Positions 1,271 through 5,377 of a stretch of 5,696 nt of DNA are shown here, piece by piece. Source of the stretch: Nitrospinae bacterium RIFCSPLOWO2_12_FULL_45_22 (lineage in GTDB: Bacteria; 2-12-FULL-45-22); NCBI GenBank assembly GCA_001803565.1, contig MHDQ01000048.1, forward strand, positions 1 to 5,696. The letters are read 5' to 3'. How positions within the stretch are numbered: position 1 is the stretch's first letter; each line of letters begins with the position of its first letter. Position numbers and translations under genes: made by a program. The notes beneath the pieces were generated by a model, which did not search any database, had not been told where the DNA came from, and worked only from the letters and a program-made list of their open reading frames with translations.

Positions 1271-2003
1271 GAAACTATTTAAGCTATATCCTCTCTTATT
1301 ATTTAGTATAATCATTCTAGCCTGTGCTACTGGAAGCTCAAGAGAATCTATTAAAGAGGATCGCCGACAAAAAGGCATTCCCGAATCCATATCACAACAA
1401 TGGCAGCGAGAACAAGAAGAACGGATAGTTAAAGTGGGCGAAAAACTCATTGAATTAGCTCCCAACGCCAAAGAGTTCACCTTTCATTTAGCGATTTCAA
1501 AGAAAGATAGCGGAGGAATAATTGACCCTGACTCTGTTAATGCTTGGACGAATGGGTGGCAAATTTTTGTGACCCGGGGGATGATGCGCTTTATTAAAAA
1601 TGATCATGAATTAGCTGTTATTCTCGGACATAAAATTTCCCATGCTAACAGCGTCTCAAGAAAAGTCGTAAAAAGAAATATTGTTGATTACATACAGACT
1701 ATAGCATTTGCAACTGTGGGAATTCCTCCTATTTGGAATACACCGCCAATAGACCCCTCTACGATGAAATTTAACCACGGTGAAGAGAAAAAAAGCGATT
1801 ATGAAGGCCTACAATGGGCTTACAAAGCGGGATATGATATTTCTGGAGGTCCTGCTTTATGGGAACGTTTCTTCACTCAGATACCGGGTTCAGTAAAAGG
1901 TGGATTCCTGTCATCCCATCCCTGGTCAACAGAACGTTTTTTGCACATGCAAGAAATCATCCGTGAATTAACCCAAGCTTCTAGTTCCGGATCAGGAGAA
2001 TGA
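1269..2003 (+). CDS. M48-family metallopeptidase-like lipoprotein with altered active site (HKxxH)
   Basis: A 244-residue protein. Residues 1-18 form a signal peptide (MKLFKLYPLLLFSIIILA) and Cys19 sits in a slightly atypical lipobox (ILAC), so it is probably lipid-anchored in the envelope. The body matches small M48 zinc peptidase lipoproteins that act in envelope protein quality control. It has NAWTNGWQIFVTRGMMRF (91-108), the HELAVILGH helix (113-121), HKISH (121-125), ExxxD at Glu173-Asp177 followed by a GL...AGYD stretch (180-190), and SSHPWSTERF (215-224). His121, His125 and Glu173, the expected zinc ligands, are present. The catalytic Glu of HExxH is Lys122 (codon AAA, 1632-1634), one base from GAA. 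It is therefore likely inactive as a protease, unless this is a sequence error. It stands alone: the next intact gene starts about 630 bp downstream. The ATG at 1269 is chosen because it gives the full signal peptide. The ribosome-binding site is weak and buried in a hairpin. Confidence 0.85.
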   Translation: MKLFKLYPLLLFSIIILACATGSSRESIKEDRRQKGIPESISQQWQREQEERIVKVGEKLIELAPNAKEFTFHLAISKKDSGGIIDPDSVNAWTNGWQIFVTRGMMRFIKNDHELAVILGHKISHANSVSRKVVKRNIVDYIQTIAFATVGIPPIWNTPPIDPSTMKFNHGEEKKSDYEGLQWAYKAGYDISGGPALWERFFTQIPGSVKGGFLSSHPWSTERFLHMQEIIRELTQASSSGSGE

Positions 2004-2637: not shown

Positions 2638-3877
2638 ATGTACCGTCTTTATAATGGTTTACTAATTCTTCTTTTTGGACTCTGTATAGCGGCGATTTGC
2701 GTCAATCTTGGTACTGCTTGGGCTTGGGAGAGCGACACTGCCGCAGACCTAAGTCGAGCCATTCTTTTGGAATGAGATACTTACGGATCAGACCAATGGC
2801 TCTGCCGCAGACAGCGTGAATATCAGTGACATACCGGGCGCGGAGCTGCCGTCTCTCGACTCATCGAGCTTAGAGCCACCCCCGGTGGGGAAAGCTTCCC
2901 GGACATCTGTGCCTTTAGCTCTCCTTGATGATAACAGAAAAAACTGGCTCGTTCCAGTGAGTAGCAAAAGTAATCGTATGATGGTCACCATGTCTGGTTG
3001 GGACTCTGTCGGACGAAATTTAGTGTATACGGGATTAAAACTGGACCCCACTGTAAACGAAATCATTCATATCCCCAAAAGCTATCAAGCCGGCAAAATT
3101 TACTTCCTTGAGCTCCAGAGCAAAGGGATAAAGGTTACTGTGCTTGACCCTAAACAAGTAGCTTCAATGGGGGGACCACTTCCATATCTTGAAAACCGTA
3201 AGCTCAGTGGTGGTGGCGGTAACTTTATTCTAAATATAGATAATGATGCATCCCGGAAAAATTTCTTTTATAAAGGGCCATCTGAGATCAAATGGGGAGA
3301 AGAACAGCTTACCAGTTGGGAGCCCGCTTATAGAAGTGTATATAAGGGCAAGGTAATCACTATGTCACAATCCTATGCGAATGCCTCTGTTGCAAATGCG
3401 ATATTAAAAGATGGTTTGTCGGTTGATGGTACTTTTATGTTTTCCTCACAGGCCAGTAGGAATACATTAAACATGATTGGAGAAAAAAACAGGCTTTTTG
3501 TAGGGAATACTTTTGGTGATATAGGTCCAGGTAAGTTTGATGGCCTTACTAAATTTAATTGGACTTTTTCAACAAACAATGCCATTGGAAGAAGGATAAG
3601 TAATCCCCACAGTGCTACAATAATTCCTGAGAATCTAGAATCCACTTTCATTGGAGTGAGAGGAGGTCCATCTTTCGAAATTAGCTCCGGAAACAAGGGT
3701 ATCCTCCCTGGGGGCATATACGTTCCCTCTTCTATGCCATCGGTTAACTTTGTCTCAGGTAGCTTTCGTTTGATAGATATATATAGAACGGAATATATGA
3801 ACATGCTGCAAATCCCTAACCAGTATAATTTTAATTATAATAGGGAGATGCTACAGTTAAGGAGAAATATCCCTTAG
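2638..3877 (+). CDS. Secreted protein of unknown family, signal peptide and body split by a one-base frameshift
   Basis: Translation from the ATG at 2638 gives a Sec signal peptide, with a hydrophobic core at residues 7-24 and likely cleavage after AWA (residue 29). It then runs ESDTAADLSRAILLE to a TGA at 2773-2775. The next frame, free of stops from 2753, carries on as WNEILTDQTNGSAADS and the rest of the body to the TAG at 3875-3877. Removing one T from the run at 2765-2768 joins both parts into about 412 residues. The body is rich in Ser, Gly and Asn, with many alternating hydrophobic residues suggesting beta structure, a GGGG stretch (in KLSGGGGNFIL), and no cysteine or membrane segment. 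I recognise no family or catalytic motif. The start at 2816 (GTG) has no ribosome-binding site or signal peptide. The frameshift may be a sequencing error, a true mutation, or less likely recoding. The next gene follows after 11 bp, implying co-transcription. Confidence 0.65.
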
Positions 3878-3888
3878 GTCTCCGATCC

Positions 3889-4704
3889 ATGTTACAACCG
3901 TACAGCTTTCCAGCCCGGGTCACTGATGATCGAGTTGGCTCAACGTTCGCGTGTGGAAGGAATGCACACCTGCAGAGGTGCCGACTTTGGTCCCGAGCTT
4001 TATGTCCGTTTGTATTATTGTTTATTCTAGTAGGCTGCGGTGCGGGCAGGCAGGAGTCCTCGGCACGAATCACGCGAGTGATATCCCCATGTGAGACCGT
4101 CCGCGATGAGCTTGACGCCGTGGTGACAGCAGTTCGAAAAGGAAGAGGCGAAGTTGCAGAGAATCAGCTTAAGAAGGCAGTGGCTCGCGCCCCAGTTTGC
4201 GCGCGAGCACATCTCCTGCTGGCTATGGTATTGCGCGAAAAAGGCAAGCTTACAAGTGCGCTGGAAGAGGCAAACGAAGCAGCACGCTTGGCGCCTGGCG
4301 ACGCAGTAATTCTGAACCTGATCGGAAATATACATGCTGCTATGGCGGCTAGCACGGGAAATCCACAGGAAGCGCTGGAGGAACTCACTATTGCCCGAAT
4401 CACTTATGCGGCCGCTATCAATATCGGCAATCCTGACATTCAATTTTCCAGCATGATCGGACTTCTAGGGATCTATCTGGAGCAAGAGCGGTTGCTTCGC
4501 CGCATCGGGAAACATACCGAGGCAGATGTGCTGCGCGTGGAAATCCAGGCATTTATTAAGGATAATCCCCGAACGAGCAAGACTCTCGAAATCTATGAGC
4601 TGCGCAATCCAACTGCTGTCCCTGTCCGAGTTGATGATCCGATGCACCCCAAGCCTGGCAAACGCACAGAACGACTGAGGCAAACCTTGGAAGGTACGAA
4701 ATGA
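3889..4704 (+). CDS. TPR-repeat lipoprotein
   Basis: A 271-residue protein with a lipoprotein signal: basic segment RLWSRALC (32-39), hydrophobic core FVLLFILV, and lipobox LVGC with Cys50 as the lipidated residue. After a low-complexity linker, residues 73-182 form helical pairs typical of tetratricopeptide repeats. The clearest is residues 105-138 (ARAHLLLAMVLREKGK, then ALEEANEAARLAPGD), flanked by a weaker one ending in QLKKAVARAPV and one covering NLIGNIHAAMAA to YAAAINIG. TPR lipoproteins usually act as protein-binding scaffolds in the envelope, and the partner here is unknown. The C-terminal 30 residues are proline-rich and basic. The region before the signal core is unusually long (about 36 residues). 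No other ATG, GTG or TTG lies between, and no clear ribosome-binding site precedes the ATG, so the start is uncertain. It follows the upstream gene by 11 bp and is more GC-rich than the genes to its left. Confidence 0.75.
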   Translation: MLQPYSFPARVTDDRVGSTFACGRNAHLQRCRLWSRALCPFVLLFILVGCGAGRQESSARITRVISPCETVRDELDAVVTAVRKGRGEVAENQLKKAVARAPVCARAHLLLAMVLREKGKLTSALEEANEAARLAPGDAVILNLIGNIHAAMAASTGNPQEALEELTIARITYAAAINIGNPDIQFSSMIGLLGIYLEQERLLRRIGKHTEADVLRVEIQAFIKDNPRTSKTLEIYELRNPTAVPVRVDDPMHPKPGKRTERLRQTLEGTK

Positions 4705-4777: not shown

Positions 4778-5377
4778 ATGAAAAAGAAGAGGATTATCAT
4801 ACTAATACTGGTGATAGTTATGCTTGGAGGCAGGGTGTCATCGGCCTACGCAAACCCTTATTTATTGCTTGCCCCCATCCTATTTGTGAAAACGATGCTA
4901 AGCGTCTTTGGTCTGATTGGTACTACAAAAGAGGTTGTTAATTTTATTGCATCGAACCCGCCCGGTATTGATGTGCCCCTCATGCGGGAAGATATAGTAT
5001 CGGCGCCGGTTGATCATGTATGGGAAATGCTCCTGAGCTATGTGCAGCGCTGTGGCTATGATGTCCACGTGGCCGCTAAACAGAGTGGTGCGCTCAGTTT
5101 TGGCTTCAGCATCAGTCCCGATGGTGACTACACAATGTCTTTGTACCCCGATAGCAGCGACGTGTGGACCGAGTGGGAAGGTTGGGAAGTGGAATATAAT
5201 GCTAAACTATACGTGACAGTATTTGTCAACCCTATTGGTCCCGGACGCACAAAGGTTAGCGTATGTTCACTGGCCCGGGTCCTCGGAAAGTACAAAAATG
5301 ATGTTTATAACATAGGATGGCGGGGGTCGAGCGGCCGCATAGAGCGCGAGGTACTCAATGCAGCAAGGGGTAGTTAG
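4778..5377 (+). CDS. Exported protein of unknown function, possible BamC/START-like fold
   Basis: A 199-residue protein from the ATG at 4778, which gives a textbook Sec signal peptide: MKKKR, a hydrophobic core (6-16), then AYA before Asn26 as the likely cleavage site. A TTG at 4748 would add ten residues before the basic segment and is less likely. Neither start has a strong ribosome-binding site. Residues 27-50 are again hydrophobic (YLLLAPILFVKTMLSVFGLIG) and may hold the protein at the membrane. From residue 65 the pattern V.APVDHVWEMLLSYVQRCGYDV, then GALSFGF, a Trp-rich turn (WTEWEGWEVEY), and beta-rich KLYVTVFVNPIGPGRTKVSV recalls helix-grip domains such as BamC or START-like proteins, in which a VW helix is followed by strands. 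This is inferred from pattern only. The C-terminus GSSGRIEREVLN would be the closing helix. Its last codons overlap the next gene, which shares parts of this pattern. Confidence 0.7.
   Translation: MKKKRIIILILVIVMLGGRVSSAYANPYLLLAPILFVKTMLSVFGLIGTTKEVVNFIASNPPGIDVPLMREDIVSAPVDHVWEMLLSYVQRCGYDVHVAAKQSGALSFGFSISPDGDYTMSLYPDSSDVWTEWEGWEVEYNAKLYVTVFVNPIGPGRTKVSVCSLARVLGKYKNDVYNIGWRGSSGRIEREVLNAARGS

Follow-up and report, generated by a model that had tools for sequence, protein, structure and literature searches.

The window analysed here comprises the first 5,696 bases of contig C48 (17,353 bases), part of a 3.67-Mb genome that is assembled in 321 contigs and is 85% complete. It contains the 3' part of a transposase, a secreted-protein gene, a tetratricopeptide repeat (TPR) lipoprotein gene and an M48-family lipoprotein gene whose catalytic Glu is absent. 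Two further M48 genes lie beyond the window on the same contig. The features, numbered from the contig start, are as follows.

3–758: IS1380-family transposase, 3' part, at the contig start (sequence match, 3–755).
1269–2003, + strand: M48-family lipoprotein ORF without the catalytic Glu (complete ORF, 244 amino acids; PF01435; AlphaFold2).
1269–1325, + strand: signal peptide with terminal lipobox I-L-A-C19, marking a predicted lipoprotein (translation, by eye).
1539–1544, + strand: N91-A92, an invariant pair in the strand region preceding the catalytic helix, retained (alignments of 26 and 94 sequences).
1629–1643, + strand: HKISH, with metal ligands H121 and H125 retained and K122 (AAA) in place of the catalytic Glu (bases; 94-sequence alignment).
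1656–1658, + strand: S130 where the family helix (HExxHxxxxH) has its third His; a gapped alignment treats that His as deleted (relatives' alignments).
1776–1799, + strand: H170-G-E-E173-K-K175-S176-D177, with ligand E173 and D177 retained and family RxxEREAD changed to HGEEKKSD (16 nearest relatives).
1917–1937, + strand: HPWSTER, the HPx4R active-site plug including the fourth ligand H217, retained (94-sequence alignment; role in BepA).
2638–2775 and 2816–3877: secreted protein, signal peptide and body, in different frames that meet near 2756–2775 (ORFs).
3889–4704: TPR lipoprotein, two genes from the M48 gene.
5881–6705: M48 protein with HELIH, on contig C48.
9694–10620: M48 protein with HEVAH, on contig C48.

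The 244-residue ORF at 1269–2003 matches Peptidase_M48 in Pfam (PF01435; E = 6.7e-12, 46 bits against a cut-off of 20.3) and carries the metal ligands and HPx4R plug of the family as well as its profile. It scores 27.6 bits on the BepA equivalog model NCBIfam NF052400, below the curated cut-off of 570. Its nearest relative, L039, comes from another phylum and aligns across residues 5–234 with 37% identity (E = 1.5e-37); judged by this alignment and the family-wide motifs, the likeness to M48 is far from chance. By eye, the hydrophobic signal ends in a Cys (LLLFSIIILAC19), L039 has the counterpart IISC at the equivalent place, and a lipid anchor is predicted. AlphaFold2 (26 sequences) modelled the protein with a mean pLDDT of 83 and a pTM of 0.76, confidently over the domain, and the M48 fold is that of this predicted model rather than of a solved structure. 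The best match of the model among solved structures is Escherichia coli BepA (6sar; Z 15.9, 147 residues, rmsd 3.1), followed by 3c37 (Z 13.7), and both rank above other zinc peptidases. By sequence, the best solved relative is 3c37 (E = 5.2e-11).

Bases 1629–1643, CATAAAATTTCCCAT, encode H K I S H (residues 121–125), and the codon AAA at 1632–1634 places Lys where M48 peptidases have the Glu of HExxH, one base away from GAA. In M48 peptidases this Glu activates water. The Pfam match and the translation confirm a preliminary description of the gene as an M48-like lipoprotein with HKxxH, and the translation and a 94-sequence M48 alignment bear out the three zinc ligands and the motifs that it listed: HELAVILGH (113–121), ExxxD (E173–D177) and SSHPWSTERF (215–224). 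In that alignment H121, H125, E173, D177, H217 and P218 are invariant, and R223 is conserved at 99%. All four metal ligands (H121, H125, E173 and H217) are therefore present in the K122 protein, the last of them within HPx4R, a conserved M48 plug motif whose His completes the set of four zinc ligands in BepA (PMC7950410). Scaffold motifs beyond the active site, AYKAGYD and SSHPWSTER, are retained too. The protein thus combines a homologous fold with a lost catalytic residue, as a pseudopeptidase does. The alterations extend further than first described, to the third helix His, R170, E175 and A176. Both the Glu and the third helix His are invariant in the 25 relatives of alignment A3, and the His is also found in the 16 nearest relatives; the ORF, which reads HKISHANSVS, has neither.

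None of the 93 other M48 homologues compared has Lys at this position. They came from across the bacterial phyla and from named genome contigs, and 92 of them carry Glu at residue 122. The lone exception carries Val (L027; G032:C217): with HVVGH and a plug Arg changed to Gln, it is a natural M48 homologue lacking the catalytic Glu and represents an independent case. The prospect that Lys might recur in a clade of close homologues, raised in the preliminary description, did not materialize. All near relatives have Glu, and no second Lys-bearing M48 sequence was found in searches of 39 named loci and 1,244 genomes, a total in which overlapping sets are counted more than once. This search covered the host's own phylum (2 genomes, the second from a different family within that order), two spread sets of 386 and 385 genomes, the phyla to which the L010 and L039 hosts belong, and 392 genomes from the same phylum as a second close relative, L078; residues were read at the best loci of each search only, a little over 100 M48 sequences. 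Genome contigs were searched with patterns from a three-sequence alignment, an eight-sequence alignment being too diverse for patterns, and a scan of them with patterns from the single protein found no relative. Plasmid records yielded distant M48 matches only, the best among the matches listed having 24–27% identity. The genome itself holds six other M48 matches, of which those showing the motif keep Glu. The survey turned up no clade that shares the Lys state, and the K122 protein is a lead rather than an established pseudopeptidase family.

Its 16 nearest relatives define 23 near-invariant columns, and the K122 protein differs at 5 of them: E122K, the missing third helix His, R170H, E175K and A176S. 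These departures occupy 5 of the 12 active-site-helix columns and none of the 11 elsewhere (Fisher one-sided p = 0.024, in a post hoc test). None falls on a metal-ligand column, and D177, P218 and R223 are likewise unchanged. The pattern bears directly on the option, kept in the preliminary description, that the real codon at 1632–1634 encodes Glu and that Lys is a sequencing or assembly error. Such an error would be a small one, AAA being one base from a Glu codon, in a fragmented assembly where a frameshift at a T run next door may itself be artefactual; the base at that codon, however, cannot explain the lost third His, R170H, E175K or A176S. A single-base error is unlikely because these four active-site changes accompany E122K, and we consider it very improbable. 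The sequence feature is real and is most likely an inactive M48 homologue.

In maximum-likelihood trees, the K122 protein groups with L039 and L078 (Planctomycetota bacterium nzgw511; 41% identity over residues 84–238) inside an M48 set whose members all keep Glu. The fork joining that set has support of 100/98 in the first tree, and the grouping in the second is weak (74/82). The end branch of the K122 protein measures 1.18–1.44 changes per column, about twice the length of its nearest relatives' branches (first tree, L039 and L078: 0.61 to 0.70; second tree, L039, L078 and L137: 0.25 to 0.77). The preliminary description had held that uniformly Glu-bearing homologues together with relaxed selection would count against it. 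Glu is indeed present in every near relative, and the long branch indicates faster change, which fits a new role and relaxed constraint alike.

The M48 locus is AT-rich and atypical in codon usage, and it opens an envelope-gene cluster at 1269–12273 of the contig (L008) that includes three unlike M48 proteins (HKISH, HELIH and HEVAH). Further along the contig are small lipoproteins, the two active-looking M48 proteins and an NHL propeller lipoprotein, with transposase-type genes recognized by eye from 12951 on. The small lipoproteins at 5358 and 10617 are remotely alike, and a run of N at 5697–5765, just past the window, marks an assembly gap that interrupts the ORF starting at 5358. In codon statistics built on 12 contigs, most cluster genes score below the tenth percentile of 91 ORFs from other contigs, and their GC content ranges from 0.39 to 0.53; in both respects the cluster stands apart from the rest of the genome. 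It has the look of a patchwork island in which envelope proteins abound. Contig C206 bears a partial copy, 92% identical, of the IS1380 remnant, which helps to tie the contig of the window to this genome. The secreted-protein gene at 2638–3877 consists of a signal ORF, MYRLYNGLLILLFGLCIAAICVNLGTAWAWESDTAADLSRAILLE, followed in another frame by EPFFWNEILTDQTNGSAADSVN, with the two overlapping beside a T run; this apparent frameshift is either an assembly indel error or a break in the gene. The protein has no Pfam family and no second copy in the genome. We rejected a recent duplication into active and inactive copies on the contig, as the other two M48 proteins are remote (17 and 8.5 bits) and sit elsewhere in the tree on long branches. 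A role in anti-phage defence was also set aside, with no PADLOC match among six proteins tested. Promoter and terminator scans stayed at shuffle level.

Several known systems resemble the K122 protein. The M48 lipoproteins of the L039 and L078 group, all with HExxH, share its domain limits and the motifs MMRFIKxxxELAVxLGH, AYxAGYDxxxGxxxWERF and SSHPxSxER, and L039 also shares the lipoprotein signal; they read HE[LI]AHxxxGH and EREAD where the K122 protein reads HKISHANSVS and EKKSD. BepA (YfgC; 6sar, 6ait), an E. coli M48 peptidase and chaperone-like factor, has the same M48 fold, four ligands and HPx4R plug. It differs in its active Glu137 and in its TPR domain, which the K122 protein lacks; a separate TPR lipoprotein is encoded two genes away. 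The BepA E137Q mutant is in effect a laboratory version of the lesion seen here. PDB 3c37 (Geobacter sulfurreducens M48, Q74D82) is a single-domain M48 protein like ours, but its motif, HEINHA, retains Glu. Outside the family, inactive ADAMs (HQxxH and others), FtsHi and alpha-MPP are metallopeptidase homologues with altered motifs that are kept for binding or complexes (PMC11266112), although they belong to other families and are recognized, established members. The nearest parallel for the substitution itself is fungal Ecm14, an M14 pseudopeptidase in which the general-base Glu of a zinc peptidase is also Lys and no activity was found (PMC11266112). Its fold and family (M14 carboxypeptidase) are different. 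This recognized pseudoenzyme offers a precedent for the Glu-to-Lys change. Occasional broken motifs occur in roughly half of HExxH families according to one survey, in which Ala, Leu and Gln were over-represented among the residues replacing Glu (PMC3650047). M48 goes unmentioned in a 2024 review devoted to metallopeptidase homologues that are inactive (PMC11266112), and 'M48' and 'pseudoprotease' seldom occur together in the literature searched.

The strongest competitor to a role in binding is slow decay. In this account the gene lost its function, perhaps because it had been acquired horizontally or because other M48 peptidases of the genome made it redundant; mutations then struck the active site, either first or by chance, and the frame has yet to be broken. 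Much of the setting would suit it: Glu in all near relatives, a branch of about double length, an amino-acid make-up unlike that of the family, atypical codon usage and variable GC across the cluster, an adjoining IS1380 fragment, a neighbouring gene that looks frameshifted, and six other M48 matches to supply redundancy. Decay should, however, also strike the conserved scaffold, whereas every departure from a conserved column lies in the active-site helices, and the ligands and plug are untouched. The frame itself, moreover, runs through 244 codons with no stop or frameshift. Random change in this ORF was computed to produce 0.07 stops per missense change, so that 80 neutral amino-acid changes would be expected to bring about 5.6 stops, with a probability of 0.0035 of none (0.06 for 40 changes); more than about 40 such changes would nearly always leave a stop. 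Long neutral decay is unlikely because the frame is open despite the stops expected, and a short or recent episode would be compatible with the sequence. The preliminary description had placed a pseudoprotease kept for binding beside a recent loss. We favour the former, and decay keeps a substantial but smaller share of our belief.

The protein might instead still be an enzyme, with another residue serving as the base or with different chemistry at the site. Its four retained ligands make a metal centre plausible, and some pseudoenzymes are described as having migrated catalytic residues (PMC10211241). Against this, the helix HKISHANSVS gains no acidic residue for the one lost, the milder E137Q change already renders BepA protease-dead (PMC8423444), and a Lys beside the metal would be expected to disfavour catalysis. 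We regard continued catalysis as improbable.

We therefore prefer, at a probability of roughly 55%, a solitary but real M48 pseudopeptidase that has lost catalysis, probably kept its metal site and works by binding. Its gene product would be lipid-anchored and envelope-facing, retaining the M48 fold, four metal ligands and HPx4R plug around a general base replaced by Lys and a rebuilt second shell. Peptide-bond hydrolysis would not be expected of it, by analogy with BepA E137Q and from zinc-peptidase chemistry; the loss of peptide cutting anticipated in the preliminary description is thus well supported by what is known of the family. The substitutions, their clustering, the unbroken frame and the predicted fold are direct results, while inactivity, lipid anchoring and binding are inferred. 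The E137Q change abolishes proteolysis by BepA (PMC7950410, PMC8423444), and the mutant, which is dominant negative, binds LptD more stably and still has maturation activity, though weakened (PMC8423444, PMC7950410). Because the K122 protein has likewise lost the base and kept the binding scaffold, it would be expected to bind without cutting. We surmise that the old substrate groove serves to hold a partner protein, or envelope proteins that are unfolded or being assembled. All the ligands for a metal are present, yet the adjacent amine would disfavour its binding, and K122, as a permanent positive charge, may weaken the metal or take its place. A more specific version, in which Lys occupies or tunes the metal site and the protein is a pure substrate holder or a partner of the envelope proteins encoded alongside, is doubtful.

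BepA unites cutting with a chaperone-like function, and laboratory E137Q mutants serve to study the latter. A natural M48 protein in which only the cutting half has been lost would, if the reading of the K122 protein as a binding pseudopeptidase is true, show that selection can act on the binding half alone.
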